Assembly: GCF_018861145.1 (NCBI RefSeq)
Contig: NZ_JAHKQT010000013.1
Coordinates: 62,001 to 126,000, forward strand
DNA: 64,000 nt
Reading direction: 5' to 3'
Source: Poseidonibacter lekithochrous
GTDB taxonomy: Bacteria > Campylobacterota > Campylobacteria > Campylobacterales > Arcobacteraceae
Under the pieces are notes generated by a model. That model was not told the DNA's origin and ran no database searches. It worked only from the letters and a program-made list of their open reading frames with translations. Numbering within the stretch: position 1 is the first letter of the stretch; each line of letters begins with the position of its first letter. Below are positions 12,482 to 35,723 of this stretch, in pieces. A program made the position numbers and the translations under genes.

Positions 12482-12513
12482 AGTATATATTTATTTTATA
12501 GCTTGATTATAGC
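12482..12513 (-). promoter_or_regulatory. GCTA tandem-box promoter of the pedF operon
   Basis: On the minus strand, GCTA (12513-12510), 7 bases, GCTA (12502-12499), 11 bases, then TATACT (12487-12482). The two GCTA start points are 11 bp apart and no separate -35 is visible. Same geometry as six other island promoters; it is back to back with the box at 12535. Confidence 0.8.
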
Positions 12514-12534: not shown

Positions 12535-12566
12535 GCTATAGTCAAGCTATAATTTTCTAATACAAT
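12535..12566 (+). promoter_or_regulatory. GCTA tandem-box promoter of the Tau/Ssu-like ABC operon
   Basis: GCTA at 12535 and 12546, then 11 bases, then the -10 TACAAT at 12561-12566. The spacer between the GCTA units is TAGTCAA, close to TAATCAA in the divergent box. The second GCTA also reads GCTATAAT, a possible overlapping extended -10. Confidence 0.8.
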
Positions 12567-12590: not shown

Positions 12591-13559
12591 GTGAGATTAA
12601 AAATACTTATATTTATGTTTATAAGCTTATTAAATTTAAATGCAAATGAAAAGATAAAAGTTGGTGTATTAGCTTTTGGAACTGTAAATTGGGAATTAGA
12701 TGTTTTAAAACACAATAAACTTGATAAAAAATATGGAATAGACGTAGAAGTTGTTAAATTAGCTTCAAAAAATGCAGTATCAATTGCCTTACAATCTAAT
12801 AGTGTAGATGTTATCGTAAATGACTGGGTTTGGGTAAATAGACAAAAGTCAAGTGGAAAGAATATCGCATTTTATCCTTATTCTAAAGCTGTTGGGGCTT
12901 TATATGTAAATGATGAAAAAATAAAATCACTTGAAGATTTATCAGAAAAAAGATTAGGAATAGCAGGTGGAAATGTTGATAAAACATGGCTATTATTTAG
13001 AGCTTATTATAAGAATAAATATAATAAAGATTTAAAAGATATAGTAACTCCTGTCTTTGCAGCACCTCCAATTTTATATAAAAAAATGCTTGATAAATCA
13101 TTAAATGCTACAATTAATTTTTGGCATTTTAATGCAAAATTAGACTCAAAAGGATTTAAAAGATTGTTAGGAGTTAAGGAGATTTTAGAAGAATTAAATA
13201 TAAGTAGTAATATTCCTCTTATTGGTTGGACTTTTAGTAAAGATTTTGCAAATAATAATACAAAAGCAATAAATAGTTTTTTACAAGCCTCTTATGAAAC
13301 AAAAAAATTATTAAGTACTTCACCTTCCCAATGGAATAGAATTAAACCCTTAATGAAAGTAAAAAATGAAGAGATGTTTAAAGCTTTAAAAAATGGTTAT
13401 ATAAATGGTATAGTAAAAAACTTCTCTACAATACATATTGAAAATTCTAAAAAAGTATTTGATATTTTATATAAAGAAGGTGGAAAAAAACTAGTAGGAA
13501 ATAGTACTTCTTTAAATACTGAAATATTCTGGAATTTTAATCCAGATATTAATTGGTAA
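12591..13559 (+). CDS. ABC transporter periplasmic substrate-binding protein (SsuA/TauA/NMT1-like)
   Basis: Exported binding protein of 322 residues; signal peptide about 1-18 (cut near NANEKIKV). Family marks are IKVGVLAFGTVNWELDVLK at the start, then ALQSNSVDVIVNDWVWV and YPYSKAVGALYV. The set SBP-permease-ATPase matches nitrate/taurine/sulfonate importers. The ligand cannot be read from sequence. The island box upstream suggests it imports something for quinoprotein alcohol oxidation, such as a cofactor, metal complex or substrate. The start is GTG with AAGGAGT seven bases before it. Confidence 0.8.
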   Translation: MRLKILIFMFISLLNLNANEKIKVGVLAFGTVNWELDVLKHNKLDKKYGIDVEVVKLASKNAVSIALQSNSVDVIVNDWVWVNRQKSSGKNIAFYPYSKAVGALYVNDEKIKSLEDLSEKRLGIAGGNVDKTWLLFRAYYKNKYNKDLKDIVTPVFAAPPILYKKMLDKSLNATINFWHFNAKLDSKGFKRLLGVKEILEELNISSNIPLIGWTFSKDFANNNTKAINSFLQASYETKKLLSTSPSQWNRIKPLMKVKNEEMFKALKNGYINGIVKNFSTIHIENSKKVFDILYKEGGKKLVGNSTSLNTEIFWNFNPDINW

Positions 13560-13567
13560 AAGCTCAA

Positions 13568-14302
13568 ATGCCAAGCCAAAATAGATTTATTTCTATATTA
13601 ATGATATTTATATTATGGCAGACCTTTGCTTTATTATTAAATACAGATACCTTTCCAAGTGCAATTGATGTTTTTAAAAGCTTATTCTTTCATTTAAATG
13701 AAGGAGAACTTCTTTATCATCTGACTATTACTTTGACAAGAGTTGTTATTACTTTCTTTATTGCAATGGCTATTGGCATTTTATTTGGTATTTTAATGGG
13801 ATCATATAAAAGAATTGATAATGCACTAGATACCTTACTTATAATAGGACTAAATATTCCTGCTCTTGTAACTATTATACTTTGTTACATTTGGTTTGGA
13901 TTAACAGATGCAGCTGCACTTTTAGCAGTAGTTTTAAATAAAGTTCCAACTGTTATTGTAACAGTACGTGAAGGTGCTAGAACAGTTGAGCAAAAATATA
14001 TGCAAATAGCACAAATTTATAAAGTATCAAAAATTGATACCTTAAATAAAATTTATTTACCACAAATTTATCCTTATATAATGGCCAGTGCAAGAACTGG
14101 ACTTTCACTTATTTGGAAGATTGTTTTAGTTGTTGAGTTATTAGGTAGAAGTTCGGGTATTGGGTTTCAATTATCTATGTTTTTTCAGTTTTTTGATATT
14201 ACAAGTATTATGGCTTATTCTTTGGCATTTATTATAGTAATCTTATTAATTGAAACATATATTTTAAGACCCTTAGAGAAAAAAGCAAACAAGTGGAGAT
14301 AA
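13568..14302 (+). CDS. ABC transporter permease (SsuC/TauC-like)
   Basis: Inner-membrane permease of about 244 residues with roughly six hydrophobic helices and the binding-protein-dependent permease loop near GRSSGIGFQLS. I chose ATG 13568; a TTG at 13553 in frame would add five residues and overlap the binding-protein gene by 7 bp. It directly follows the substrate-binding gene and is one base before the ATPase gene, so the three form one importer. Substrate unknown. Confidence 0.8.
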   Translation: MPSQNRFISILMIFILWQTFALLLNTDTFPSAIDVFKSLFFHLNEGELLYHLTITLTRVVITFFIAMAIGILFGILMGSYKRIDNALDTLLIIGLNIPALVTIILCYIWFGLTDAAALLAVVLNKVPTVIVTVREGARTVEQKYMQIAQIYKVSKIDTLNKIYLPQIYPYIMASARTGLSLIWKIVLVVELLGRSSGIGFQLSMFFQFFDITSIMAYSLAFIIVILLIETYILRPLEKKANKWR

Positions 14303-14303
14303 G

Positions 14304-15026
14304 ATGTTAGATATAAATATAAGTTCAAAAAAATATCAAGATAATAAAATTATAGAAAATTTAAAACTTGAAGTAAATGAAAGTGAATTTATATCAATTA
14401 TTGGACCTTCAGGTTGTGGTAAAACTACACTTTTAAACATAATATCAAATACTGATAATGATTTTTTAGGGTCAATTTTATTTGATGAAAGAAATATAGT
14501 AGATAGTAATATTGGAGTTATGTTTCAAGATTCAAGACTTATTCCATGGCTTACAATCTTTGAAAATATAATGCTAGTTTCTAATACTAAAGATGAAGAA
14601 TTGATTTTACAATCTTTAGTAGAAGTTGGTTTAGAAAATTATATAGATTCTTATGCAAAAGAGCTGTCAGGAGGAATGCAAAGAAGAGCAGCATTAGTTA
14701 GAGCTTTTATAAATAAACCTGATGTTTTATTACTTGATGAACCTTTTATCTCATTAGATTATCCAACTGCACAAGCTTTAAGAAGTGATTTTTTAAAGTT
14801 TTATAAAAAGTACAAGCCAACTGTTATTTTTATAACTCATGATTTTAAAGAAGCAGTTTCTTTATCTAATAGAATAATTTTTTTAGATTCAAAACCTATG
14901 AAGATTGTTTTAGATTATGAAAATAAAAATGACTTTTCTTCAAACCTTGAAGACTTAGAAATAGAAAAAATAAAAGAAAATATTTTAGCAAAATATCCTG
15001 GTATTTTATCTGGAAGTATAAGCTAA
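14304..15026 (+). CDS. ABC transporter ATP-binding protein (SsuB/TauB-like)
   Basis: ATPase of 240 residues with a full set of motifs: Walker A GPSGCGKTT near residue 35, Q loop FQDSRLIPW, signature LSGGMQRRAAL, Walker B VLLLDEPF followed by ISLD, and switch histidine in FITHDFKEA. It energises the importer encoded just upstream. Its end meets the DUF302 gene tail to tail across a perfect inverted repeat that works as a terminator. Confidence 0.85.
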   Translation: MLDINISSKKYQDNKIIENLKLEVNESEFISIIGPSGCGKTTLLNIISNTDNDFLGSILFDERNIVDSNIGVMFQDSRLIPWLTIFENIMLVSNTKDEELILQSLVEVGLENYIDSYAKELSGGMQRRAALVRAFINKPDVLLLDEPFISLDYPTAQALRSDFLKFYKKYKPTVIFITHDFKEAVSLSNRIIFLDSKPMKIVLDYENKNDFSSNLEDLEIEKIKENILAKYPGILSGSIS

Positions 15027-15526: not shown

Positions 15527-16675
15527 TTATTTTTTACACTCTACTTTATAAGCTGCAATTCCTAAAGTATCTAAATCATTCGTTGGATGTAAAAAACCAT
15601 CTTGAGGTGAAGTTGAAACTAATGCATTAGGTTGAACAAGAGCCACTGGCATTCTCATTTGTCCATTAAAGTCTCTATATGTTAACTTTCTTCCTTTATA
15701 AGCTCCTAATTCAAAATCTTTTGAATAAATATAATCTAAAGATGTTTTCATATCCATGCTTTTTGTTTTTGTTACACTCGTAACAATAGTTCTAATAGCA
15801 ACCCAAGCTGCAAAATCTTCATCTTCCATCCATCTTGAAGCAAACTTTTCAAACCTTTTTTGCATTTGAGCTGCACCCCATTGTTCAATTACTTTATGCC
15901 AAGTTTTAGAAGTCAAACCTTGTGTTCCAGCAAGCGGTCTTGGAAGCCAAGAGTTAAAATAAATAAATTCTCCAAAGTCCCCATAATTGTCAGCAGTAAC
16001 AATTACATCATAATCACTAGCTTGAGTAAATACAGGTAATTCATCAGCAGCTTTTCTTCTAATATCTGCATCATAAACCCATTGTTTTTCTTCTACTATT
16101 TTTGCATTGAATTTTTTTACTGCTCTTTTAATATCTTTTTTGATTTGTAAATCTTTTTCTTTTGTTCCTGAAATTAAAAAGATATCTTTAAAATTTCTTT
16201 TTATTAAAAATTGAACTAGTCCATCATATAGCATTGCATTTGAAGCAATAGTATGTAAAAGATTGTTTTGACATACATTTTGTCTAAAATCAGAATTTTT
16301 ATTTGCTATATTGAAGAATATTGCTTTTTTAAATAAAGGGTTACTAAGAAGTTCATTTAAGAAATCATCTTCAACTTTTAATAAAACAAAAGAGTTCTTT
16401 TCTTTTATAAATTTTTCTAGTGAAGATAACAACTCTTTTTTATCAGATGAAACTTTTTCTACTAACTTATATTTTTGATTCAAAAACTTTGCTGTTTTAT
16501 TAGAATCTTTTACAGCTATTTTAGCTCCTTGTATTCCTAAGTCCTCAGGTATCTTAATAACATTTGATAAAACAGGAGGTCTTTGTATTTTTTGTTCTAA
16601 GTATAAAATATTTACTTCCAAAATATCTGCTTTTATAAATGAAAATAAAAGTGTAAGAAATAGTACTATTCTCAT
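15527..16675 (-). CDS. PQQ-alcohol-dehydrogenase-system ABC substrate-binding protein (PedC/LutA-like)
   Basis: Exported protein of 382 residues (signal peptide about 1-16) with a periplasmic type-1 binding fold. The N-terminal ILEVNILYLEQKIQRPPVLS and the distal RPLAGTQGLTSKTWHKVIEQ match the family named ABC transporter, substrate-binding protein, PQQ-dependent alcohol dehydrogenase system. Relatives in Pseudomonas putida (Ped ABC system) and Methylorubrum (Lut) are tied to lanthanide-dependent growth. It is transcribed away from the propeller, ATPase and permease genes, from a back-to-back pair of GCTA boxes, so the whole system is co-regulated. Confidence 0.75.
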   Translation of the reverse strand: MRIVLFLTLLFSFIKADILEVNILYLEQKIQRPPVLSNVIKIPEDLGIQGAKIAVKDSNKTAKFLNQKYKLVEKVSSDKKELLSSLEKFIKEKNSFVLLKVEDDFLNELLSNPLFKKAIFFNIANKNSDFRQNVCQNNLLHTIASNAMLYDGLVQFLIKRNFKDIFLISGTKEKDLQIKKDIKRAVKKFNAKIVEEKQWVYDADIRRKAADELPVFTQASDYDVIVTADNYGDFGEFIYFNSWLPRPLAGTQGLTSKTWHKVIEQWGAAQMQKRFEKFASRWMEDEDFAAWVAIRTIVTSVTKTKSMDMKTSLDYIYSKDFELGAYKGRKLTYRDFNGQMRMPVALVQPNALVSTSPQDGFLHPTNDLDTLGIAAYKVECKK

Positions 16676-16699: not shown

Positions 16700-16731
16700 A
16701 GTATATATAACTTTTATAGCTTCAGTTTAGC
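16700..16731 (-). promoter_or_regulatory. GCTA tandem-box promoter of the binding protein/DUF302 operon
   Basis: Minus strand: GCTA (16731-16728), spacer AACTGAA, GCTA (16720-16717), 11 bases, TATACT (16705-16700). Same spacing as the other island promoters. Confidence 0.8.
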
Positions 16732-16744
16732 ATATGTATATATT

Positions 16745-16776
16745 GCTAAACTCAGGCTATAATCATTTACTACAAT
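16745..16776 (+). promoter_or_regulatory. GCTA tandem-box promoter of the propeller/ABC operon
   Basis: GCTA at 16745 and 16756, 11 bases, then TACAAT at 16771-16776. It is divergent from the box at 16700-16731, 13 bp away. Confidence 0.8.
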
Positions 16777-16804: not shown

Positions 16805-17224
16805 ATGAAAAAGATTGCAATGTTTGTAATTATGCTATTTTTAACAGGGGAGTTTGCTTTTGCAAAGAACTTAAAAGGTTTATTACATTCAAGAACAACA
16901 TTATCACCTATTAATATTAGTGCAGGTGAACCATTAGCTACTGAACCTTATAAATTAGAAGCAGGAAAATACTACAAGCTTATTATTAAAAGTGATGGTT
17001 CAAGAGAAGTACCTATTGTAGGCGCTAATTTTTTTAGAAATATTTGGGTAAATCAAGTATCTATTAATGACATTGAAGTAAGACCCTTAGGAATAGATAG
17101 TTTTGAATTTGATGATGAAGGTGCTATTGAGCTTACATTTATACCAATTAAACCAGGTACTTATACATTAGGTCTTCCTACAGCAAAAAGTGATAGAGAA
17201 CGAGCTACTTTTATTGTTGAATAA
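16805..17224 (+). CDS. exported small beta-rich protein, cupredoxin-like pattern, function unknown
   Basis: Exported protein of 139 residues (signal peptide about 1-20, cut near AFAKN). The mature part reads as a beta sandwich: LEAGKYYKLIIKSDG, NIWVNQVSIND and FIPIKPGTYTLG recall the strands and the PGTY end of cupredoxins. The mature chain has no cysteine or methionine and its only histidine is near the N-terminus, so a blue-copper site cannot form. It is first in an operon with the YVTN propeller and the PQQ-type ABC genes under a GCTA box, so it probably serves that system. AAGGAGA precedes the ATG. Confidence 0.6.
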   Translation: MKKIAMFVIMLFLTGEFAFAKNLKGLLHSRTTLSPINISAGEPLATEPYKLEAGKYYKLIIKSDGSREVPIVGANFFRNIWVNQVSINDIEVRPLGIDSFEFDDEGAIELTFIPIKPGTYTLGLPTAKSDRERATFIVE

Positions 17225-17249
17225 TATAAAATATTAAAGGAGATAAAAA

Positions 17250-18209
17250 ATGTTAAAAAAAATTGGATTAGTTACTATTTTAGGTTCGTGCTTATTTGCG
17301 GATACAATATTTGTTTCAAATGAAAAAGACAATACTATTTCTGTAATTGATTCAAATACTCAAAAAGTTATAAAAACTTATGAAGTTGGTCAAAGACCAA
17401 GAGGAATTACACTTACAAGTGATTATTCAAAATTATATATATGTGCAAGTGATGATGATACTGTACAAGCTATGGATACAAAAACTGGGAAAATTTTGTA
17501 TAATCTTCCTTCAGGAGAAGATCCAGAACAGTTTTCTTTACACCCAAATGGTAAAGAACTTTATATTTCAAATGAAGATGATGGTATTGTAACAGTTGTA
17601 GATACTGTTAATAAAACTGTTATTAAACAAATTGAAGTGGGTATTGAACCTGAAGGTATGGCTGTAAGTCCAGATGGAACTGTAGCTATTAATTCATCTG
17701 AAACATCAAATTTCTTGCATTGGATTGATACTAAAACTAAAGAGATTATTCATAATACCTTAGTTGATGAAAGACCTAGACATATTGAGTTTTCAAAAAC
17801 TGGAGATAAAGTTTGGGCATCAAGTGAAATTGGTGGTACTGTGATTATTCTTGATACAAAAACTAAAGAAGCTATTTCAAAAATATCTTTTAAAATTCCA
17901 GGAGTTTATAAAGATAAAATTCAGCCAGTTGGTATTAAACTTACATCTGATGGTAAGTATGCTTTTGTAGCGCTTGGACCTGCAAATCATGTAGCAGTTG
18001 TAGATGCAAAAACTTATAAAGTTATTAAGTATTTATTAGTTGGAAAAAGAGTTTGGCAATTAGACTTAGCAAATAATGAAACAAAACTATATACTACAAA
18101 CGGTGTTAGTGGAGATGTATCAATTATTGATGTAGATTCTTTAAAAGTCGAAAAGACAATTAAAGTAGGAAGATTCCCATGGGGAATAGCAGTAAAACCG
18201 ACAAAGTAG
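17250..18209 (+). CDS. PQQ-dependent catabolism-associated YVTN beta-propeller protein
   Basis: Exported seven-bladed propeller of 319 residues (signal peptide about 1-17). Repeats of the type TISVIDSNTQKVIKTYEVG-PRGI occur about every 42 residues (for example VTVVDTVNKTVIKQIEVG, VSIIDVDSLKVEKTIKVG). The family is known from PQQ-dependent alcohol oxidation clusters, including the Ped ABC gene group of Pseudomonas. Its task is unproved; a periplasmic binding or scaffold role is possible. AAAGGAGAT lies before the ATG, and the ATPase gene follows after 5 bp. Confidence 0.8.
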   Translation: MLKKIGLVTILGSCLFADTIFVSNEKDNTISVIDSNTQKVIKTYEVGQRPRGITLTSDYSKLYICASDDDTVQAMDTKTGKILYNLPSGEDPEQFSLHPNGKELYISNEDDGIVTVVDTVNKTVIKQIEVGIEPEGMAVSPDGTVAINSSETSNFLHWIDTKTKEIIHNTLVDERPRHIEFSKTGDKVWASSEIGGTVIILDTKTKEAISKISFKIPGVYKDKIQPVGIKLTSDGKYAFVALGPANHVAVVDAKTYKVIKYLLVGKRVWQLDLANNETKLYTTNGVSGDVSIIDVDSLKVEKTIKVGRFPWGIAVKPTK

Positions 18210-18214
18210 GGTAA

Positions 18215-18934
18215 ATGAAAAATCAGCTTGAAATAAAAAATATTTCTTATAAATATGACAAAGACTTAGTTTTAAAAAATATAAATCTAAATATAAAACA
18301 GGCATCATTTTTAGTCCTTTTGGGACTAAATGGTGCAGGAAAATCCACTCTTTTTGCTTTAATAACAAGATTACTTAAACTCCAAGAGGGAGATATATTT
18401 ATAAATTCATTTCCTATTTCAAACTATAAAAAAGCCTTAGCAAATATTGGTATTGTTTTTCAAGAACCAACATTAGACTTAGATTTAACAGTGAGACAAA
18501 ATCTAATCTTTTATGGTTCTTTAAAAGGGATCTCATTTAAAGAAACAATGGCTTCAATTCAAGAAGAGCTAAAAACACTAGAATTAGAAGAAAAACTAGA
18601 TGTAAAAGTTAGATCTTTAAATGGTGGACATAGAAGAAGAGTAGAAATATTAAGAGCTTTAATTGACAATCCAAAACTAATCTTACTTGATGAAGCAACT
18701 TCAGGACTTGATGTAAAAAGTAGATACTCAATCATTTCTTATGTAAAAGATATTGTTAAAAAAAGAGGAATTTCTGTTTTATGGATTACTCACCTTTTTG
18801 ATGAAGTTGATGATGAAGATGATGTTGCAATTATCAAAAAAGGCGAAATAATTGCTAATGGAATTGTAAAAGATGTGATAAAAGAAAATAATAAAGATTC
18901 ATTAACAGAAGTTTTTGAATACTTAACAAAGTAA
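18215..18934 (+). CDS. ABC transporter ATP-binding protein, PQQ-alcohol-dehydrogenase system (PedA1/LutE-like)
   Basis: ATPase of 239 residues. Walker A is LGLNGAGKSTL near residue 35 and Walker B ILLDEATSGLD. The signature is unusual, LNGGHRRRVEILRAL instead of LSGGQ, a hallmark I associate with the PQQ-system ATPase family. It pairs with the ABC-2 permease that follows. Relatives are part of systems needed for efficient lanthanide-dependent growth. It is co-transcribed with the propeller gene. Confidence 0.8.
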   Translation: MKNQLEIKNISYKYDKDLVLKNINLNIKQASFLVLLGLNGAGKSTLFALITRLLKLQEGDIFINSFPISNYKKALANIGIVFQEPTLDLDLTVRQNLIFYGSLKGISFKETMASIQEELKTLELEEKLDVKVRSLNGGHRRRVEILRALIDNPKLILLDEATSGLDVKSRYSIISYVKDIVKKRGISVLWITHLFDEVDDEDDVAIIKKGEIIANGIVKDVIKENNKDSLTEVFEYLTK

Positions 18935-18951
18935 AAAATGAAAGTAGTAAA

Positions 18952-19734
18952 ATGAGAAAATTATATTATTGTGCCCTTGGAATTATTTATAAAGAATTAC
19001 TTCGTTTTATAAAACAAAAAAGTAGATTTTTCTCAGCTCTTGTTCGACCACTTTTATGGCTATTTATTTTCTCTGTTGGTTTTAGATCCGCTTTAGGTCT
19101 TGCAATTATCCCTCCTTATGAAACATATATTACTTATGAAACATATATTGTTCCAGGTTTAATTGGAATGATTTTACTTTTTAATGGTATGCAAAGTTCT
19201 CTTGCTATGATTTTTGATAGAGAAATGGGAAGTATGAAAATTCTTTTAACTTCAAATATCTCAAGATCTTACTTACTTTTTTGTAAAATGTTTGCAACGG
19301 CTATTGTATCTACAATCCAAGCTATTGTATTTTTAATTATTGCATATTTTTATGGTGTAGAAATTCCTTTATTAGGATATTTACTAGCAATTCCTGCAAT
19401 TTTATTTACCTCAATTATTTTAAATGCCTTTGCTTTATTTATCTCCTCAGTTATAAAACAACTTGAAAATTTTGCTTCAGTTATGAACTTTGTAATCTTT
19501 CCAATGTTCTTTTTATCTTCTGCTTTATATCCTTTATGGAAAATTAAAGATTCAAGCTTGTTTTTATACCAAGTTTGTGTACTAAATCCATTCACATATA
19601 TAGTAGAATTTGTAAGATTTACACTTTATTTAAGATTTGAGTTAAATTCTTTTTTAATTATAATCGCTATCTTTATAATCACTCTAAGCCTCGCATTTAT
19701 AGGCTATAACACTAAGAATGTATTAAAAAGATAA
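18952..19734 (+). CDS. ABC-2 type permease, PQQ-alcohol-dehydrogenase system (PedB/LutF-like)
   Basis: Inner-membrane protein of 260 residues with about six hydrophobic helices and an ABC-2 permease pattern (RPLLWLFIFSVGFRS, FNGMQSSLAMIFDREMGSMK, FPMFFLSSALYPLW). ABC-2 permeases are usually exporters, yet this system also has a periplasmic binding protein, so transport direction is open. It ends the operon; a T-rich hairpin terminator follows directly. Confidence 0.8.
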   Translation: MRKLYYCALGIIYKELLRFIKQKSRFFSALVRPLLWLFIFSVGFRSALGLAIIPPYETYITYETYIVPGLIGMILLFNGMQSSLAMIFDREMGSMKILLTSNISRSYLLFCKMFATAIVSTIQAIVFLIIAYFYGVEIPLLGYLLAIPAILFTSIILNAFALFISSVIKQLENFASVMNFVIFPMFFLSSALYPLWKIKDSSLFLYQVCVLNPFTYIVEFVRFTLYLRFELNSFLIIIAIFIITLSLAFIGYNTKNVLKR

Positions 19735-19771: not shown

Positions 19772-19803
19772 CCTATATTCAAGCTATATTTCTCATGTAT
19801 ACT
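19772..19803 (+). promoter_or_regulatory. GCTA tandem-box promoter (one mismatch) of the lanthanide-type dehydrogenase
   Basis: CCTA at 19772 (one base off), spacer TATTCAA, GCTA at 19783, 11 bases, TATACT at 19798-19803. The leader to the ATG is about 45 bases. Confidence 0.75.
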
Positions 19804-19853: not shown

Positions 19854-21626
19854 ATGGGAAAGAATAAATTTCTTAATAACGTAGCTAAAATTACATTATC
19901 TACACTATTAAGTGCTAGTGCAGTAAGTTCATTATCTGCTAGTGCAGGGTTTGCACCTGTAACAGATGCAGATATTGCTAATGATGCTAAAACTGTTGAA
20001 GATGTTGTAACATATGGTTTAGGTCAAAAAGGTCAAAGATATTCATCTTTGAAAGAGATTAACAAAAAAACTATTAAAGATTTAGTTCCAGTATGGAATT
20101 TTTCATTTGGTGGTGAAAAACAAAGAGGACAAGAAGCTCAACCTTTAGTTAAAGATGGAGTTATGTATGTAACTGCTTCTTATTCTAGAATGTATGCTAT
20201 TGATATAGCAACTGGTGATGAAATTTGGCAATACGATGCAAGACTTCCAGGTGCTATTTTACCATGTTGTGATGTAATAAATAGAGGTCCAGCATTATAT
20301 GAAAATCTTGTTATTTTTGGTACATTAGATGCAAAATTAGTTGCACTTGATAGAAAAACTGGTAAAGTTAAATGGAAAAAGAAAATTGCTAATTATAAAG
20401 ATGGTTACTCTTATACAGCAGCACCTTTAATTGTTAAAGGTTTATTAATCACTGGAAATTCAGGTGGTGAATTTGGTGTTGTAGGACAATTAGATGCAAG
20501 AAATCCATTAACAGGTGAAATTGTATGGACTCGACCAATGGTTGAAGGTCATATGGGTACTTTAAATGGTAAAGATAATGGAATTACTGGGCAAACAAAT
20601 GCTACATGGCCAGGTGATTTATGGAAACATGGTGGTGCTGCTCCTTGGAATGGTGTTACTTATGATCCAGATGCAGATTTAATTTATGTTCCAACAGGGA
20701 ATCCTTCTCCTTGGAATTCACATGATAGACCAGGTGATAACTTATACTCTGCTTCAAGAGTAGCAATTAATCCTGATACTGGAAAAATTGTTTGGCATTT
20801 CCAAACAACTCCAAATGATGGTTGGGATTATGATGGTATTTCTGAATTTGTAGCTTTTGAGTACAAAGACAAAAATGGTAAAATGGTAAAAGCAGGTGCA
20901 ACTGCAGATAAAAATGGTTTCTTCTATGTATTAGATAGAGTTACTGGAAAATATATTAGATCAGTTCCTTTTGTAGAAAATGTTACTTGGGCAAAAGGTA
21001 TGGATAAAAACGGTCGTCCAATTGTAAATGAAGATAATAGACCTGGTAAACCAAGTGCTGATAAACAAGGTAAAACTGTTTATTCAACTCCATCTTTCTT
21101 AGGTGGTAAAAACTGGAATCCAATGGCATTCTCACAAGATACTGGATTATTCTATGTTCCTGCAAATGAATGGGGAATGGATATTTGGAATAAACCTGTT
21201 GCATATAAAAAAGGTGCAGCTTACTTAGGTGCTGGATTTACAATTAAACCAACATTTGAAGATCATATTGGAGCTTTAAAAGCTGTTGATCCAAAAACTG
21301 GTGAAATTAAATGGACTTATAAAAACAACGCACCATTATGGGGTGGAGTTTTAACAACTGGTGGTGGACTTGTATTTACAGGAACTCCTGAAGGTAAATT
21401 CTTAGCATTTGATGACCAAACTGGTGAAATCCTTTGGAAGTTTAATGTTGGTACTGGAATTGTAGGTTCTCCTATTACTTGGAAACAAGATGGTGAACAA
21501 TACATTGCAATCGTTGCAGGTTGGGGTGGAGCTGTTCCTTTATGGGGTGGTGAAGTTGCAAAAACTGTTAAGTATTTAAATCAAGGTGGATCAGTTCACG
21601 TATTTAAATTACATAAATCAAAATAG
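19854..21626 (+). CDS. PQQ-dependent alcohol dehydrogenase, lanthanide type (XoxF/PedH-like)
   Basis: Exported eight-bladed quinoprotein of 590 residues with a Sec signal in about 1-31. The adjacent cysteines C138-C139 (LPCCDV) form the disulfide ring over PQQ. Metal/PQQ residues are E206 (GGEFGV), N283 (TGNPSPWN) and catalytic D325. The decisive residue is D327 in GWDYDG: the extra aspartate two places after the catalytic one marks lanthanide-binding enzymes, where calcium enzymes have Ala, Ser or Thr. No C-terminal cytochrome domain is present, so it needs a separate cytochrome c. pqqA follows within 32 bp. Substrate (methanol, ethanol or longer alcohols) is not decided by sequence. Confidence 0.9.
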
Positions 21627-25573: not shown

Positions 25574-25643
25574 ATAAAATCCCTCTAAATATTTAAAGTC
25601 TCATATTATAGGATTTAAAGAAAAATATTTCTTCTTTACTTGT

Positions 25644-25695
25644 GCTATATTTATTGTTTATTAGTGCTAATTTTATGGTTCATTTATGCTATAAT
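25644..25695 (+). promoter_or_regulatory. AraC-gene promoter with three GCTA units at 22-bp spacing
   Basis: GCTA at 25644, 25666 and 25688: two steps of exactly 22 bp, i.e. two helical turns each. The last unit is part of GCTATAAT, whose TATAAT (25690-25695) is the likely -10. The ATG begins six bases after it, so the transcript may be leaderless. Geometry to the -10 differs from the other island boxes. Confidence 0.5.
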
Positions 25696-25700
25696 TTTTT

Positions 25701-26576
25701 ATGAAGAAAGAAACTCTTAAAAAAAGAACTAAAATAGCAAATAATATTATGTACTATATTTATACTCATATTGATACAGATATTGATATCGAAGAGTTGA
25801 GTATAGATTTACATGTAAGTAAATTCCATATGCATCGTATTTTTAAAGAAGCTTTTGGAAGAAATATATATGAAAGTATCAAATCAATAAGACTACAAAA
25901 AGCCTCAAATTTACTTTTGACAAATAAATTATCGACAATTTCTAATATAGCAAATATATGTGGATATTCGTCTCAATCATCTTTTATAAAGATTTTTAAA
26001 GAAAGGTTTGAACAAACACCAAAGCAGTGGAGAACTGGAGGATATAAAAATTATTCAAATAAGATTTTAAAACAATCTTTAATAGCAATGAATTCAACAG
26101 CAGATTTTTCTAATATTAAACCTACTATTGTAAAAATGCCAGCATTAAAAAGTTTTTATATTAGAAATAGAGGTTATAACATAAATATCACAAATACATG
26201 GCAAAAATTATATACTTGGGTTTTGAGTAATAATATAAAATCATATAAGCAAATTGCTCTTTTTCATGATAATCCTACAATTACTCCTTTAAATGAATGT
26301 CAATATATCGCTTGTATAGTTCCAGATGAAAATGAGGAGATAACAAGCGATAGATTACCAAACTTTTATATTGCAAAAGGAGTTTATGCAAGATTTGATT
26401 TAAAAGGGAAAAAAGGAGATGCACTAAAATTTATTCATTGGGTTTATCATGAATGGCTTCCAAATAGTGAATATGAAACAACTACAAAACCTTCTTATAC
26501 AGAATACAAGAAGAATAATTATTTAAGTGAAGATGATGAGTTTGATATTAGTTTTTATGTTTCGATTAGTTTTTAA
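25701..26576 (+). CDS. AraC-family regulator with GyrI-like effector domain
   Basis: Transcription factor of 291 residues. The AraC double helix-turn-helix is at the N-terminus (about 20-110: VSKFHMHRIFKEAFG, then ANICGYSSQSSFIKIFKERF and TPKQWR). The C-terminal half (about 130-291) is a GyrI/SOUL-like small-molecule-binding domain, as in Rob- and BmrR-type regulators. The ligand is unknown; an alcohol, aldehyde or PQQ-related compound would fit the island. Its promoter carries phased GCTA units, so it is probably a target of the island regulator. No ribosome site precedes the ATG. Confidence 0.8.
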   Translation: MKKETLKKRTKIANNIMYYIYTHIDTDIDIEELSIDLHVSKFHMHRIFKEAFGRNIYESIKSIRLQKASNLLLTNKLSTISNIANICGYSSQSSFIKIFKERFEQTPKQWRTGGYKNYSNKILKQSLIAMNSTADFSNIKPTIVKMPALKSFYIRNRGYNINITNTWQKLYTWVLSNNIKSYKQIALFHDNPTITPLNECQYIACIVPDENEEITSDRLPNFYIAKGVYARFDLKGKKGDALKFIHWVYHEWLPNSEYETTTKPSYTEYKKNNYLSEDDEFDISFYVSISF

Positions 26577-27804: not shown

Positions 27805-27837
27805 TAATTAAAACTTATGGAATATAAGTTTTAATTA
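27805..27837 (-). terminator. terminator after the OmpR-type regulator
   Basis: Perfect 14-bp stem: 27805-27818 pairs with 27824-27837, loop GGAAT. It overlaps the stop codon of the regulator and separates it from the peroxidase gene downstream. Confidence 0.7.
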
Positions 27838-28490
27838 GGTCTTTCAACCATATATCCACTACCTCTAATATTTTTGATAAAATCTTCTTTTAGAACTTTT
27901 TTAACTCGATTTACTTCAGCTCTAATAGTAGCATTATCAATAAAATCATCATTCCAAACATAGTTTCTAAACATATCATATTGAACTACTAAACTTCTGT
28001 TATGTGCAAGTAGTTCGATAATTTGTATTTGTCTTTTTGGAAGAATTTGTGGTTCATTATTAAATAATAATGTCATAGTTTCACTGTCATAAGAGTAGTT
28101 TTTTGATAATCTTTTATGTTTTTGGGGAACAATTGTTGTTTTTAAAATTTTATTTATTCTTATTGTTAATTCTTTTAAATGAAAAGGCTTTTTTAAATAA
28201 TCATGACATCCAATATCAAAGGCTCTTGAAATATCTTCTATTTCAATTAGAGCAGAAATATAAATAGTAGGAACCATTCTTTTTTGTTCATGTAAAGTTT
28301 CTAGTACAGTGAAACCATTAATATCAGGTAAATTAATATCTAAAATAAGTAAGTCGAACTTTTCTTTTTCTAATACTTCCATACACTCTTGTCCTGTAGT
28401 TGTACTTTTTACTACATGTCCTGTTGATGCTAAGTATTCACTTATCATCTCATTTAACATTGAATCATCTTCTAATAGTAATATTTTCAT
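27831..28490 (-). CDS. OmpR/PhoB-family response regulator, partner of the FIST kinase
   Basis: Response regulator of 219 residues. The receiver is complete: D8/D9, phospho-acceptor D51 (LILDINLPDING) and K101 (LKKPF). The C-terminal winged helix (LPKRQIQIIELLAHNRSLVV, then NRVKKVL and IRGSGYMVE) is of the OmpR type. Its start overlaps the kinase stop by four bases (ATGA). OmpR/PhoB proteins bind direct repeats spaced one helical turn apart that replace the -35 box, exactly the form of the island's GCTA promoters, so this is the leading candidate for the island activator (inference). It differs from the LuxR-type regulators of Pseudomonas ethanol oxidation. Confidence 0.88.
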   Translation of the reverse strand: MKILLLEDDSMLNEMISEYLASTGHVVKSTTTGQECMEVLEKEKFDLLILDINLPDINGFTVLETLHEQKRMVPTIYISALIEIEDISRAFDIGCHDYLKKPFHLKELTIRINKILKTTIVPQKHKRLSKNYSYDSETMTLLFNNEPQILPKRQIQIIELLAHNRSLVVQYDMFRNYVWNDDFIDNATIRAEVNRVKKVLKEDFIKNIRGSGYMVERPN

Positions 28491-30403
28491 TTTATTTCCT
28501 TAAATATATATGTAAATGACGCCCAGTTTTCACCAGATGCTAATTGTATTCCAACATTTTCTTCACTACAAATACGTTTTACTAAGTTTAATCCAAGACC
28601 AAAGCCTTCTTGGTCATTGATTTGTTCTCTATAATATTCTTCAAATATTTTTTGCTGATCTAGTATCTGTTTTGAACGACTTTCTATTATTAAATGACAA
28701 TCATGATTCATGATATTTAGCTTAACTACTATTGTTTCATTTGGGAGGGAATATTTAATTGCATTTGTAAGATTGTTATCAACTATTCTTTGAAGTTTAA
28801 TTTCATTAAAATCTAATAAAATCTCTTTTCTTTGTGCGGAAAAATCAAATTCACATTTAAATTTTATTGCAGATTGTGTAAAGAAATCAATTCTACTTCT
28901 TACAAAATCTACTAAGTTAATCTCATGTGTTGCTTCATTGACTTGATTCTTTTTTATTAAATAAGATAAATCATCATATATGCTAGAAATGTTTTTCATA
29001 GCAACTTCTATATTTGATAAGTGCTTATTTTTCCCATTTTCCATTTCATACATTTCAATATTTCCCATTATAATTGATAAGGGTGTATTTGTTTCATGAA
29101 CAGCATGTTTTAAAAACTGCTTTTGAGAATCAACTAAATTTTGTGCATAAACTTTACCTTCTTCTAACTCTTTTGATTGTTTGTCATAATCTTCTGATGA
29201 TTGTTGTATTAAATGTGTTAGAGCCTGTAGACTTCTTGCATGTTCACTTATAGGTTGTGTGTCTTTTTCTAATTCACAAGAAACCTTTTTAATATTCTTA
29301 ATATTTTCTAATTCACTTAATGCAACAATTGTAAATGTTTGATTTAATAACTCATTATTTCCATTATCATGATAAAACTCACCATAAGTAAAAAAACCAG
29401 AAGTAGGGGCAATTAGTGAAAATGGCTTTATTTCAATATCAACCATACTTGGCATATATCTTCTTCTTGCCATACATGAATATATAAAAAAAGATTGTGT
29501 ATCTTTTATGTTAGAAGTGTCAAATAAAGATTCTAAAGGATTATTCATAATAAGTTCAACATTACCAAAGCCTAGTTTTACTTTATCTCCTTTATATAAG
29601 TTTCCTGCAAAACTTAAACTTCCATCTTTATGCTTTTGTATAACAGCGCGTGCTACAGGAAGGTTATTTCTTTGTGCAATTAATGGAAATTCAATACCCG
29701 TAGCTGGAAGAGCTTTTGCTACATATTCCCCTAAATATTTTTCATAAAAGTCTAAAGGTTTCATTCCTGATATTTGATAAACTCTATTATCTACTACTTT
29801 TTCAATAGTATGCTCAATACCAATTGGTGACCAATTAAAATTATAGGCATTGTTTACTTTTAATATTTTAGAATCCAAAGCAACACCCACTGCACCTTTT
29901 ACAAGTATTTGATTTTGAGAAGATACAAAGGTTTGCGTAAAGTTTGCATTATCTCCTGCCATTCCCCCTGTTACTATAACTTTGTTATTTACAGATTGAA
30001 TACCTTTTAAAAAGGATTCACCATTTGTTTTATCTCCATCACTAAATGTAATAAGTAGTTTGGTATCTTTAGTACAAAGTTCATTTGCTAAGTCTACACC
30101 ATTACTAAAAGAATCTTTTCTTCTAACAAAGGTAGTCTTTAATTTTGTATTTTCAAATATAGATATAGAAATAATAGTTTTACAAGTAGTTATTTGACTA
30201 TTATTAATTTCTCCATCTGTAGATGAACCAATACAAATAGCTTGAGGTAACTCATCTAATAATGTAGAAACTATTTCCTTTAAAACGGATTTTTTATCTC
30301 CACAAAATATTTGAATTAATATATTTTCTTCTTTTTTTAAGGAATTAAAATCAATTAAGGTATCTAATGCGTTGTTGTTATATGTATAGTTAAATGTTTT
30401 CAT
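28487..30403 (-). CDS. FIST-domain sensor histidine kinase
   Basis: Soluble hybrid of a FIST sensor and a histidine kinase, about 638 residues from ATG 30403. FIST_N lies near 10-200 (ICIGSSTDGEI, VIVTGGMAGDNANF), FIST_C near 200-370 (NRVYQISGMKPLDFYEKYLG, FSLIAPTSGFFTYGEF), then a coiled linker. The phospho-acceptor histidine is in KHAVHETNTPLS, with NNLTNAIKYS and GFGLGLNLVK in the ATPase domain. FIST is a cytoplasmic small-ligand sensor, so the signal is probably a metabolite inside the cell. An in-frame TTG at 30514 would add 37 residues but lies inside the GCTA array; GCTACAAT sits just before ATG 30403, hinting at a leaderless transcript. Confidence 0.82.
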   Translation of the reverse strand: MKTFNYTYNNNALDTLIDFNSLKKEENILIQIFCGDKKSVLKEIVSTLLDELPQAICIGSSTDGEINNSQITTCKTIISISIFENTKLKTTFVRRKDSFSNGVDLANELCTKDTKLLITFSDGDKTNGESFLKGIQSVNNKVIVTGGMAGDNANFTQTFVSSQNQILVKGAVGVALDSKILKVNNAYNFNWSPIGIEHTIEKVVDNRVYQISGMKPLDFYEKYLGEYVAKALPATGIEFPLIAQRNNLPVARAVIQKHKDGSLSFAGNLYKGDKVKLGFGNVELIMNNPLESLFDTSNIKDTQSFFIYSCMARRRYMPSMVDIEIKPFSLIAPTSGFFTYGEFYHDNGNNELLNQTFTIVALSELENIKNIKKVSCELEKDTQPISEHARSLQALTHLIQQSSEDYDKQSKELEEGKVYAQNLVDSQKQFLKHAVHETNTPLSIIMGNIEMYEMENGKNKHLSNIEVAMKNISSIYDDLSYLIKKNQVNEATHEINLVDFVRSRIDFFTQSAIKFKCEFDFSAQRKEILLDFNEIKLQRIVDNNLTNAIKYSLPNETIVVKLNIMNHDCHLIIESRSKQILDQQKIFEEYYREQINDQEGFGLGLNLVKRICSEENVGIQLASGENWASFTYIFKEIK

Positions 30404-30494: not shown

Positions 30495-30548
30495 GCTATA
30501 TTCATGCTATACAAATGCTAAATTCATGCTATACTAGTCATGTAGAAT
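30495..30548 (+). promoter_or_regulatory. four-unit GCTA array, promoter of the aldehyde dehydrogenase gene
   Basis: GCTA starts at 30495, 30506, 30517 and 30528, each exactly 11 bp apart. The -10 TAGAAT (30543-30548) follows the last unit by the usual 11 bases. This is the longest array in the window and lies between the aldehyde dehydrogenase and the divergent FIST kinase gene. Confidence 0.82.
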
Positions 30549-30623: not shown

Positions 30624-32120
30624 ATGGCATATACTAAACCTCAATATCAAGAACAATTTGAAAACTTTATCGGCGGAGAGTGGGTTGCACCTCTAAGTGG
30701 AGAATACTTTGATAATCTATCACCTGTTGATGGAGAAGTTCTTACAAGAATTCCAAGATCAAACGAAGCAGATGTAGATGCCGCAGTAGCAGCTGGATTA
30801 GAAGCTTTCCAAACTTTTAAGCATTCTTCAGTAATTGAAAGATCAACAATGTTAAATAAAGTTGCAGATGCAATTGAAGCTAACTTAGAAGCAATTGCAA
30901 TTGCAGAAACTTTAGATAATGGTAAAGCAGTTAGAGAAACTTTAGCAGCTGATGTTCCTTTGGTTGTTGACCACTTTAGATACTTTGCTTCTGTAATTAG
31001 AGGTGAATCTGGTGATGTTTCGGATTTAGATGAAAATACTATTTCTCAAGAAATTCACGAACCTTTAGGTGTTGTTGCACAAATTATTCCATGGAATTTC
31101 CCATTATTAATGGCTGCATGGAAAATTGCACCGGCTTTAGCTGCTGGTAATACTGTTGTATTAAAACCTGCATCTGCAACTCCAATGTCAATTTTAATTT
31201 TAATGGAAACAATTAAAGATGTTCTTCCAAAAGGTCTTGTTAATGTTATTAACGGTGCTGGTGGAAAAATTGGTAAACATTTATCAACTCATCCAGATAT
31301 CAAAAAAGTTGGATTTACAGGTGAAACTACTACTGGTCAGTTAATTATGCAATATGCAACTGAAAATATTATTCCTTCTACATTAGAACTTGGTGGTAAA
31401 TCACCAAACATCTTCTTAGAATCAATCATGGATAAAGATGATGAATTCTTTGATAAAGCAATTGAAGGTCTTGTATTATTTGCATTTAACTCAGGAGAAG
31501 TTTGTACTTGTCCATCAAGAGCATTAATTCAAGAATCAATTTATGAACCATTTATGAAAAGATGTTTAGAAAGAATTGAAGCTATTACACAAGAAAATCC
31601 ATTAGATCCTACAACTAAAATGGGTGCTCAGTGTTCAGTTTCTCAAAAACAAAAGATTCTTGAGTATATCAAAATCGGTAAAGATGAAGGTGCTGAATGT
31701 TTAATTGGTGGAGAAGCTTATGATAATAAAACTTATCCAAATGGAAACTATATTAAACCTACAATCTTCAAAGGTCACAACAAAATGAGAGTATTCCAAG
31801 AAGAAATTTTTGGACCTGTTTTAGCAGTTACAACTTTTAAAACTGAAGAAGAAGCACTTGAAATTGCAAATGACACTATCTACGGATTAGGTTCAGGTGT
31901 ATGGTCAAGAGATGCACACCAATTACATAAATTCTCAAGAGGAATTGAAGCTGGTAGAGTTTGGGTAAATTGTTACCACATGTACCCATCTCATGCATCA
32001 TTTGGTGGATACAAAAAATCAGGTATTGGTAGAGAAACACATATGATGATGTTAAACTCTTACAGACATACAAAAAATATTTTAACTTCATACTCAAAAG
32101 ATGCTATGGGATTCTTTTAG
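30624..32120 (+). CDS. NAD-dependent aldehyde dehydrogenase (ExaC/AldB-like)
   Basis: Cytoplasmic aldehyde dehydrogenase of 498 residues that oxidises the aldehyde made by the quinoproteins to the acid. Catalytic residues are E255 in LELGGKSPN and C294 in FNSGEVCTCPSR; the NAD region shows IIPWNFPLLMAAWK and GFTGETTTG. The N-terminal NFIGGEWVAPLSGEYFDN recalls ExaC/AldB acetaldehyde dehydrogenases. Transcription starts from the four-unit GCTA array, so it belongs to the island regulon. A DUF779 gene, often next to such enzymes, follows after a terminator. AAAAGGACT precedes the ATG. Confidence 0.92.
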   Translation: MAYTKPQYQEQFENFIGGEWVAPLSGEYFDNLSPVDGEVLTRIPRSNEADVDAAVAAGLEAFQTFKHSSVIERSTMLNKVADAIEANLEAIAIAETLDNGKAVRETLAADVPLVVDHFRYFASVIRGESGDVSDLDENTISQEIHEPLGVVAQIIPWNFPLLMAAWKIAPALAAGNTVVLKPASATPMSILILMETIKDVLPKGLVNVINGAGGKIGKHLSTHPDIKKVGFTGETTTGQLIMQYATENIIPSTLELGGKSPNIFLESIMDKDDEFFDKAIEGLVLFAFNSGEVCTCPSRALIQESIYEPFMKRCLERIEAITQENPLDPTTKMGAQCSVSQKQKILEYIKIGKDEGAECLIGGEAYDNKTYPNGNYIKPTIFKGHNKMRVFQEEIFGPVLAVTTFKTEEEALEIANDTIYGLGSGVWSRDAHQLHKFSRGIEAGRVWVNCYHMYPSHASFGGYKKSGIGRETHMMMLNSYRHTKNILTSYSKDAMGFF

Positions 32121-32226: not shown

Positions 32227-32607
32227 ATGAGTATTGAAAGAGTAGCTATTACTCCTGCAGCAGCAGAGGTTGTAGAGAAACTTAAAGCCGAACATGGTGA
32301 ATTAGTATTTAACCAAAGTGGTGGTTGCTGTGATGGAACTGCTCCTATGTGTTATGCAAAAGGTGATTTTTATGTGCCTTCACGAAATATAAAACTAGGC
32401 GTTCTTTGTGGTTGTGATTTTTTTATAGATAAAGACCAATTTGAATACTTTAGACACTCACATATTACAGTTGATGTAAAAGAAGAAAAAGCTGCTTTTG
32501 GTAATTCTTTCTCTTTAGAAATAGATTTAGGATATCAGTTTGTTACAAAATCTAGAATCTTCACTGACGAAGAATATGCACAATTAGATGAGAATGAAAA
32601 GAAATAA
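32227..32607 (+). CDS. DUF779 family protein, aldehyde dehydrogenase companion
   Basis: Small protein of 126 residues with a compact cysteine motif: C34-C35 in SGGCCDGTAPMC (next Cys at 42) and a further CGC near residue 60. This is the DUF779 pattern. Genes of this family commonly sit beside acetaldehyde dehydrogenase genes, which is also the case here. The cysteines could bind a metal or a thiol adduct; no reaction is known to me. AAAAGGAT precedes the ATG. Confidence 0.75.
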   Translation: MSIERVAITPAAAEVVEKLKAEHGELVFNQSGGCCDGTAPMCYAKGDFYVPSRNIKLGVLCGCDFFIDKDQFEYFRHSHITVDVKEEKAAFGNSFSLEIDLGYQFVTKSRIFTDEEYAQLDENEKK

Positions 32608-33514: not shown

Positions 33515-33836
33515 AGAAACCTCATTAGTTTTTTGTAATTGTACATAACTTTTGTTAATAGATAGTATATAGATTTATATTGAAAATACGTTAATTTATT
33601 TAATTAATTAAACTAATTTTCTCTTTTTTCTAGTCAAATTAAATAAATAATTAGTTATTGAGAATGATATTTGTTATTGTAAAGCCCATAAAAAGGTACT
33701 TTATTATTAAATAATAATTTTTGCTAAACTTATGCTATATAATCATTGTATCATTTTTGCTAGTTATCTTAATTGGACCAGTTAATGTCTGTTTAAATAA
33801 ATAAGATAATAATTTAATAATATGGGAGTGTGTAAA
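33515..33836. promoter_or_regulatory. 322-bp divergent intergenic region, exbB / calcium-type dehydrogenase, with Fur-like site
   Basis: The only gene-free stretch over 300 bp. It is very AT-rich. GAGAATGATATTTGTTATT at 33660-33678 matches 14 of 19 bases of the Escherichia coli Fur consensus. Farther right is the GCTA tandem promoter of the dehydrogenase (33723-33754), plus one extra GCTA at 33759 out of helical register. Nothing else recognisable. Confidence 0.5.
33723..33754 (+). promoter_or_regulatory. GCTA tandem-box promoter of the calcium-type dehydrogenase
   Basis: GCTA at 33723, spacer AACTTAT, GCTA at 33734, 11 bases, then TATCAT at 33749-33754. A second possible -10, TATAAT, overlaps the box at 33738-33743. 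Leader of about 70 bases. Confidence 0.75.
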
Positions 33837-35723
33837 ATGAAGTACAATTTGTTAAAAAAAACTGCAGTTGTAACATTACTTAGTTTTTTGAGTGTTAACT
33901 CAGCTTTTTCAAGTACATCAACTAAAAAAGTTTCATGGGAAGATATTCTTAATGATCAGAAAACACCTGAAAATGTTTTAATGTATGGTATGGGTCCAAA
34001 AGCGCAAAGGTATTCTACTCTTGAGCAAATCAATACTAAAAGTATTAAAGATTTAGTTCCTGCTTGGAATTATTCATTTGGTGGTGAAAAACAAAGAGGA
34101 CAAGAATCACAAGCTTTAGTTCATGATGGAATTATATATGTTACTGGTTCTTATTCTAGGATTTTTGCATTAGATGCAAAAACTGGTAAAAGAATATGGC
34201 AATATGAACATAGATTGCCTGCTGGGATTCGTCCTTGTTGTGATGTTATTAATAGAGGAGCTGCAATTTTTGGAGATAAAGTATTTTTTGGAACTTTAGA
34301 TGCAGGAATGGTTGCATTAAATAAAGATACAGGAAAAGTTGTTTGGAAGAAAAAATTCGGTTATGCTGATAGACCTAATAAAGGTTATGAAGATGGTTAT
34401 ACAATGACAGGTGCTCCGACTCTTATTAAAGATAAAAAAACTGGTAAAGTACTTCTAATTCATGGTTCATCAGGAGATGAATTTGGTGTAATTGGTAAAC
34501 TTTTTGCATTAGACCCAGATACGGGTAAAGAAGTTTGGATGAGACCACTTGTTGAAGGACATTACGGTAGATTAGATGGTAAAAAATCAACTCCTTCAGG
34601 TGATCCAAAAGCTCCTTCTTGGCCAAATGATCCTAATAATGAAACTGGTAAGAAAACTTCTTGGAGTCATGGTGGTGGTGCTCCTTGGCAAAGTGCAAGT
34701 TTTGATGCTGAAACAAACACTATTATAATTGGTACAGGTAATCCAGCTCCTTGGAATACATGGGAAAGAACTGCAGATGGTGGGGATCCAAGAGATTGGG
34801 ATAGTTTATATACTTCAGGACAAATTGGTATTGATCCAAGTACTGGAAATATTAAATGGTTCTATCAACACACACCAAATGATGGTTGGGATTTCTCAGG
34901 AAATAATGAGTTAGTATTATTTGAATATCAAGATAATGGGAAAACTGTTAAAGCAACTGCTCATGCAGATAGAAATGGTTTCTTTTATGTAATTGATAGA
35001 TCAGAAATGCCTTTAGCTAAAAAACAAAGAGATGATCAATCAAGAAGATTTATTAGAGCATTCCCTTTTGTTGATAAGATTACTTGGGCAAGTCATATAG
35101 ATAAAAAAACTGGTAGACCAGTAGTTGACCCTAAACAATATCCTCCTTTACCAAAAGAAGGTGAATTAAAAGGTGAGTCAATTAATGTTGCTCCTCCATT
35201 CCTAGGTGGTAAAAATTGGAATCCAATGGCATACAGTCAAGATACTGGTTTATTCTATCTTGGAGCAAATCACTGGGAAGAAGAATATTGGACTACACCA
35301 ATTGCATACAATAAAGGTGCAGCTTATTTAGGTCAAGGGTTTAGTATTAAACGAACTTATGATGACCATGTTGGTATTTTAAGAGCAGTTGATCCTATAA
35401 AAGGTGAAATTGTTTGGTCACATAAAGAAGAGTTACCATTATGGTCAGGTGTATTAGCTACTAAAGGTGGATTAATATTTACGGGAACTAGTGATGGTTA
35501 TTTAAAAGCATTTGATGCAAAAACTGGAGAAGAATTATTTAAATTCCAAACTGGATCAGGTGTTATTTCTTGTCCTATTACTTGGGAAGAAGATGGAGAA
35601 CAATATATTGGACTTGCTAGTGGATACGGTGGAGCTGTACCATTATGGGGTGGAGATATGGCTAAATTAACTAAAACGGTTTCACAAGGTGGATCTTTTT
35701 GGGTATTTAAATTAAAAAAATAA
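33837..35723 (+). CDS. PQQ-dependent alcohol dehydrogenase, calcium type (PedE/ExaA-like)
   Basis: Exported eight-bladed quinoprotein, 628 residues from ATG 33837, which has GGGAG eight bases upstream; the ATG at 33822 lacks a site. Sec signal about 1-25. C134-C135 form the vicinal disulfide. PQQ/metal residues are E215 (SGDEFGV), N302 (TGNPAPWN) and catalytic D352. Two places later is Ser354 (GWDFSG), not Asp, which is the calcium-type pattern of ethanol dehydrogenases such as ExaA/PedE. It is clearly related to the lanthanide-type enzyme of this window but longer by insertions. A pentapeptide-repeat gene follows. Confidence 0.9.
   Translation: MKYNLLKKTAVVTLLSFLSVNSAFSSTSTKKVSWEDILNDQKTPENVLMYGMGPKAQRYSTLEQINTKSIKDLVPAWNYSFGGEKQRGQESQALVHDGIIYVTGSYSRIFALDAKTGKRIWQYEHRLPAGIRPCCDVINRGAAIFGDKVFFGTLDAGMVALNKDTGKVVWKKKFGYADRPNKGYEDGYTMTGAPTLIKDKKTGKVLLIHGSSGDEFGVIGKLFALDPDTGKEVWMRPLVEGHYGRLDGKKSTPSGDPKAPSWPNDPNNETGKKTSWSHGGGAPWQSASFDAETNTIIIGTGNPAPWNTWERTADGGDPRDWDSLYTSGQIGIDPSTGNIKWFYQHTPNDGWDFSGNNELVLFEYQDNGKTVKATAHADRNGFFYVIDRSEMPLAKKQRDDQSRRFIRAFPFVDKITWASHIDKKTGRPVVDPKQYPPLPKEGELKGESINVAPPFLGGKNWNPMAYSQDTGLFYLGANHWEEEYWTTPIAYNKGAAYLGQGFSIKRTYDDHVGILRAVDPIKGEIVWSHKEELPLWSGVLATKGGLIFTGTSDGYLKAFDAKTGEELFKFQTGSGVISCPITWEEDGEQYIGLASGYGGAVPLWGGDMAKLTKTVSQGGSFWVFKLKK

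Follow-up and report, generated by a model that had tools for sequence, protein, structure and literature searches.

The response regulator RR1 and the FIST-domain sensor kinase encoded beside it most probably form a cytoplasmic two-component switch for aldehyde oxidation, and here also for PQQ-dependent alcohol oxidation, that would act through tandem GCTA half-sites; judged from sequence, we put the probability of this reading at about 85%. The window, to which all plain coordinates refer, is a 64,000 nt stretch of Poseidonibacter lekithochrous DNA within contig C2 of a 2.996 Mb genome of Arcobacteraceae type in 44 contigs, and its features are collected in Table 1 (G, C and L numbers denote genomes, contigs and loci). 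An earlier note on this DNA had named the pair as the likely controller of the GCTA promoters, and that proposal is strengthened by the comparison of genomes given below, in which the boxes track the pair through loss, unlinking and target swap.

Table 1. Features of the window that belong to the proposed switch and its candidate targets.
Feature	Position	Strand	Basis or remark
RR1, OmpR/PhoB-type response regulator, proposed binder of GCTA repeats	27831..28490	-	Pfam Response_reg + Trans_reg_C
Soluble sensor kinase: FIST N, FIST_C, HisKA (H436), HATPase_c	28487..30403	-	Pfam
Four-copy GCTA array of aldH promoter, 11-bp period, between kinase and aldH	30495..30531	+	
-10 hexamer TAGAAT of aldH promoter, 15 nt from G of last GCTA	30543..30548	+	
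aldH, ExaC-like acetaldehyde dehydrogenase, constant target within family	30624..32120	+	Aldedh
DUF779 protein downstream of aldH, conserved	32227..32607	+	PF05610, synteny
GCTA pair, promoter of ExaA-type PQQ-ADH; -10 TATCAT at offset 15	33723..33737	+	
PQQ-dependent ethanol dehydrogenase, closest to 1flg (ExaA); metal-site motif WDFSG	33822..35723	+	
CCTA-N7-GCTA pair, promoter of PedH-type PQQ-ADH and pqq genes; -10 TATACT at offset 15	19772..19786	+	
PQQ-dependent ethanol dehydrogenase, closest to 6zcv/6zcw; metal-site motif WDYDG	19854..21626	+	
GCTA pair, promoter of 16805-19734 (PQQ-associated beta-propeller, ABC genes); -10 TACAAT	16745..16759	+	
GCTA pair, promoter of PQQ-associated binding protein 15527-16675; -10 TATACT	16717..16731	-	
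GCTA pair, promoter of ABC operon 12591-15026; -10 TACAAT	12535..12549	+	
GCTA pair, promoter of cytochrome c / binding protein / SoxYZ / MBL operon 12453-9433; -10 TATACT	12499..12513	-	

RR1 is a protein of 219 aa, and its Response_reg and Trans_reg_C domains score 92.3 and 40.4 bits, above the curated cut-offs of 30.2 and 26.2 bits. The kinase carries FIST N (124.9 bits), FIST_C (70.1 bits), HisKA (34.0 bits) and HATPase_c (43.4 bits) on one chain, and this combination is kept across 20 orthologues. The identification of 27831-30403 as a FIST kinase and an OmpR/PhoB-type regulator was confirmed. Residues M1, H198, C310 and H436 are invariant in the 20 orthologues, and since M1 is one of them and an extended frame from a TTG (to 30514) would overlap with the GCTA array, translation of the kinase probably begins at the ATG at 30403. 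No transmembrane segment was found in the kinase, the hydropathy of all its 19-residue windows being 1.08 or less, so the protein is predicted to be soluble and it is reasonable to expect that the signal it reads is cytoplasmic. The NosP equivalog (NF041558) matches residues 20-362 at 52.8 bits, far under its cut-off of 450, and the kinase was therefore not filed as NosP. An AlphaFold model of the kinase had a pLDDT of 73.9 and a pTM of 0.57, and in a Foldseek search of this model against the PDB the best 50 matches listed were mostly histidine-kinase cores, with no informative FIST match among them. Poseidonibacter ostreae is among the named relatives nearest to the kinase (about 90% identity).

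Seven promoters in the window (12513-, 12535+, 16731-, 16745+, 19772+, 30517+ and 33723+) share one layout, six with GCTA-N7-GCTA and one with CCTA-N7-GCTA, and in all seven the distance from the G of the last GCTA to the -10 hexamer downstream is exactly 15 nt. The chance of a -10-like hexamer at one fixed offset in these promoter regions is 0.043. GCTA-N7-GCTA occurs eight times in the window against 0.96 expected, a count reached in none of 100 shuffles. The same spacing dominates in relatives: in the sense of the target gene, 66 of 76 orthologous divergent regions contain GCTA-N7-GCTA (the exact pair is missing from the other 10), other gaps occur five times or fewer each except for N18 (48; 22 bp, or two turns), and the opposite strand has the pair in one region. 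The best -10 falls at offset 15 in 51 of the 66 orthologous promoters. The earlier description of the GCTA promoters as direct repeats of 11-bp period that replace the -35 box is thus borne out as to layout, which is that of a putative tandem, directional operator of one helical turn in the place of the -35 box.

The four-copy array between the kinase and aldH, whose layout is kept in most orthologous loci, is the largest in the window, and to that extent the pair is, as had been stated, divergent from the largest GCTA array; the genome holds a larger one, of six copies, at G000:C1:3460-3518. That array (L001 3460-3518) precedes a cytochrome c gene and is divergent from a MOMP-like porin, and a similar array lies between the same types of gene at L233. 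Arrays of five to six copies are also found before the gene for a 314-aa protein without a Pfam match (L234 8742-8799 and equivalents), and they recur in several g2 genomes. A whole-genome scan with SCTAWANTNANGCTAWA gave 23 matches, compared to seven for the reversed control, and the matches outside the island look like background, except for the C1 array and a ccoN-side site.

In this phylum AT-rich promoters often have no clear -35 box, and together with the rigid -10 offset this could be taken to mean that the repeats serve a sigma factor or the structure of the promoter instead of a regulator. Such an element is hardly credible, however, given that copy number reaches four to six repeats, that the strongest matches in the genome are nearly confined to functionally related genes, and that aldH in genomes lacking the pair has no repeats.

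Genes of aldehyde and alcohol oxidation are among those behind the boxes (Table 1). For AldH the best-scoring model is the ExaC equivalog NF050026, at 817.6 bits and thus under its cut-off of 900. The two PQQ-dependent dehydrogenases (PQQ-ADH) are of opposite metal type by motif, and both have GCTA promoters; by inference, the enzyme encoded at 33822-35723 would be of the Ca type and that at 19854-21626 of the lanthanide type, a couple that resembles the PedH/PedE lanthanide-switch pair of Pseudomonas. The CCTA-N7-GCTA variant upstream of the latter gene is kept in relatives. A PQQ-ADH orthologue in another genome (G067:C6:119294-121036) has one in-frame TAG stop.

The distribution of the pair was compared with that of the boxes in a sample of 104 genomes of the family, an orthologue of the kinase being counted at about 480 bits or more; 62 genomes carry one and 42 do not. 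A GCTA triple is found in 54 of the 62 pair-positive genomes, as against 6 of the 42 pair-negative, and when either a triple or the 17-mer is accepted the counts become 62/62 and 10/42. GCTA boxes in genomes without the pair had been named as an observation that would speak against control by RR1, and matches do occur in these ten pair-negative genomes. Five of them have been traced: those in G025 and G031 fall in a conserved stretch of helicase codons, that in G039 touches open reading frames, and those in G016 and G086 lie at the RR3 locus (see below). The other five are single matches (G046, G047, G049, G070 and G101). Control by RR1 withstood this check, as it did the other checks that were run.

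Loss and unlinking of the pair are also informative. An aldH gene of 74-82% identity is retained by 14 genomes without the pair, and in all 14 the 260 bp upstream of the gene are free of GCTA pairs. In a tree of aldH the pair-less rows group as a single clade (support 99/87; 13 rows used) and hence represent about one loss event, not 14 independent ones, and Fisher p-values overstate the independence of the genomes. In G041 and G042 the RR1/kinase pair has neither aldH nor a box alongside, and aldH, located elsewhere, retains an upstream GCTA pair. The box upstream of aldH in G042 is GCTATATTCAGGCTATA, and the PQQ-ADH retains CCTATATTCATGCTA (loci L260, L261, L264 and L265 for these aldH and PQQ-ADH genes). 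PQQ-ADH itself is confined to pair-positive genomes, of which half have it (31/62, versus 0/42). Aldehyde oxidation appears to be the constant target of the module and the PQQ-alcohol island an optional addition, a point on which the earlier note needs correction.

Two paralogues of RR1 in the same genome provide the main rival explanation, in which RR3 or RR2 would bind the island boxes in place of RR1 or alongside it. Over the DNA-binding domain RR2 shares 69% identity with RR1, and RR3 53% (33% or less for the other OmpR-type regulators compared), and among these regulators only RR2 and RR3 have a recognition helix near-identical to that of RR1 (IDNATIRAEVNRVKKVLKEDF). RR2 is encoded at G000:C23 with a second FIST kinase, and RR3 at G000:C7 with a dCache kinase, beside genes for a sodium:solute symporter, DUF485 and DUF294. 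GCTA-N7-GCTA is present near both, which supports GCTA as the predicted core site of an RR1/RR2/RR3 subfamily, and the similar helices and nearby GCTA pairs make cross-talk possible. As the binder responsible for the island, however, either paralogue is unlikely. Matches to RR3 are present in genomes that lack RR1 and keep aldH without boxes, and RR3 is thus not sufficient; sites at RR3 loci also prefer GCTATTTTAAT or GCTACCYTTTT spacers to GCTAWANTNA. RR2-type matches (at least 63% identity) are listed mainly in the genus of the window, while every one of the 62 pair-positive genomes of the family has boxes. The RR3 loci themselves (L221-L227 and L240) have arrays of the GCTATTTTAAT type and a GCTA pair just downstream of the regulator gene. 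Close to the RR2/second FIST kinase pair (L220 7141, L231 3901) are genes for an AraC protein, an MFS transporter and an aminotransferase, and GCTAGTTTAATGCTA is conserved there.

A different OmpR-type regulator might also read the boxes, with the FIST pair merely sharing the locus. RR1 had been described as the only OmpR-type regulator of the island, which is correct for the PQQ island proper; the window encodes a second one (RRx, 4551-5261, minus strand, with a kinase at 3222-4517, minus strand), and the genome has 44 Trans_reg_C matches, 42 of them over the cut-off. In addition, the distant PceP of Sulfurospirillum, with a DNA-binding domain 28% identical to that of RR1, binds CTATA repeats of 11-bp period, which shows that repeats of this kind are used by more than one clade, and a PceP-like protein with a CTATA preference is a further candidate. 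Against this, RRx sits in a conserved fba-peb4-coaB neighbourhood, unrelated to the island and present even in genomes without a PQQ island nearby, and its DNA-binding domain is 19-20% identical to that of RR1; RRx was rejected as the controller on these two grounds. Among RR1, RR2, RR3, RRx and the AraC/Rob-type regulator considered next, none but the RR1 pair tracks the boxes through loss, unlinking and target swaps, and we consider control by some other OmpR-type regulator improbable.

The AraC/Rob-type gene (25701-26576) is located in the island, and its leader (25642-25695) has three GTGCTA-like sites at 22 bp that are kept in several relatives. These sites are without the 11-bp, offset-15 layout, the last overlaps the gene's own -10, and they are probably the operator of the AraC gene itself. 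Runs of four to six sites at 11 bp suit binding by an OmpR-type protein better than by AraC. Moreover, AraC orthologues of at least 66% identity occur in many genomes that have neither pair nor boxes, while several box-bearing genomes have only AraC matches below 60%. Since its orthologues do not track the boxes across genomes, AraC was rejected as the controller, and its control of the GCTA promoters is very improbable.

RR1 thus remains the preferred binder, and orthologous pairs in other families of the order indicate what the module may respond to. In Sulfurospirillaceae the gene divergent from the pair is usually a molybdopterin (MOP) aldehyde oxidoreductase (NF045668, 1591 bits against a cut-off of 1100; best PDB matches 1dgj and 1sij), and GCTATATTCATGCTA or a close variant lies between the two. 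In one genome of this family (L325) the box is found at an aldehyde:ferredoxin oxidoreductase (AFOR) just downstream of the regulator gene, and among the loci of f7, f8 and f16 it is at ALDH-DUF779 in four of five. The -10 is at offset 15 in all seven of the unlinked, swapped or chemoreceptor targets that were read, and it is so placed at L325, L333, L334, L335, L316, L321 and L238. GCTA pairs also precede genes for FIST-domain chemoreceptors (L316 3222, L321 5408, L238 5329 and L329 10972), of which the first three are the chemoreceptor promoters with the -10 at this offset. Because three unrelated aldehyde-oxidizing enzymes share one regulator and operator, an aldehyde switch is preferred over an ethanol-specific reading, and the exchange of the target enzyme around a constant regulator and operator suggests that the signal of the kinase may be a metabolite of the aldehyde pathway.

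The following sequence of events is proposed. The FIST domain would sense an intracellular small molecule that reports aldehyde or alcohol catabolism, and the kinase, from its domain make-up and the pairing of the genes, would phosphorylate RR1. RR1 is expected to bind head-to-tail on GCTA half-sites, which are seen to lie one helical turn apart. With 15 nt between the first base of the last half-site and the -10, bound RR1 would stand in for the -35 box and could recruit RNA polymerase as PhoB does. In this way RR1 would activate aldH-DUF779 in nearly all pair-carrying genomes of the family, and in those that have the PQQ island also the ADH, pqq, cytochrome and ABC operons of the island; outside the family, the same switch may be wired to other aldehyde-oxidizing enzymes. 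A more specific version is offered tentatively, as somewhat less than an even chance: that the FIST domain directly senses an aldehyde or its carboxylate product, and that the pair serves Campylobacterota as a general switch for aldehydes, connected to ALDH, MOP, AFOR or PQQ-alcohol oxidation depending on lineage. If so, the FIST chemoreceptors, whose genes have the same kind of GCTA promoter, would guide cells by the signal that the kinase reads. A metabolite of the aldehyde pathway as the signal would also offer a way to approach the ligands of FIST domains, about which little is known. Many Arcobacter-type genomes encode dozens of two-component systems, and for the RR1 pair a binding site can now be predicted, along with a rule for promoter layout (the -10 lying 15 nt from the last GCTA) and a candidate regulon. 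The pair, its targets and its distribution appear to be undescribed in the literature searched.

The classic system of this design is PhoB and the pho box, in which a response regulator of the OmpR/PhoB type occupies direct repeats at 11 bp that replace the -35 box. RR1 differs in its half-site (GCTA, compared to TGTCA for PhoB) and its non-phosphate targets, and it scores 93 bits with the PhoB equivalog TIGR02154, below the cut-off of 296.2. The closest precedent is PceP, the OmpR-family regulator of the PceS/PceP system (TCS2), which belongs to the same phylum and governs the tetrachloroethene regulon of Sulfurospirillum in response to PCE. Gel shifts showed that (C)CTATA repeats of 11-bp period are required, most of these repeats overlap the -35 box, and the published consensus is CTATW-N17-CTATW (PMC7755780). 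The promoter design was therefore already known in the phylum. The two regulators are not close homologues, with DNA-binding domains only about 28% identical, and the word FIST is absent from the text of the PceP paper (PMC7755780).

The ped/exa cluster of Pseudomonas resembles the island in gene content, with ABC, SoxYZ-like, MBL, PQQ-ADH and aldehyde dehydrogenase genes as similar cargo. It also has a FIST protein and a soluble kinase within a PQQ-alcohol cluster: NosP (PA1975/PP_2663) is co-cistronic with the kinase PedS1/ErcS'/NahK (PA1976) (PMC12997753). NosP, like the kinase described here, has both FIST_N and FIST_C, and FIST domains of the NosP type bind heme and sense NO (PMC12570481). 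In Pseudomonas, FIST forms a protein of its own and activation is by a LuxR-type regulator (AgmR/PedR1/ErbR), whereas in the island FIST is fused to the kinase and the output regulator is of the OmpR type. The suggestion in the earlier note that the island represents a control solution independent of Pseudomonas accordingly holds for the output regulator but not for the FIST component, which the ped cluster also encodes as NosP (PMC12997753). As far as gene content can tell, FIST is linked to PQQ-alcohol clusters in both Pseudomonas and the Arcobacter-type groups.
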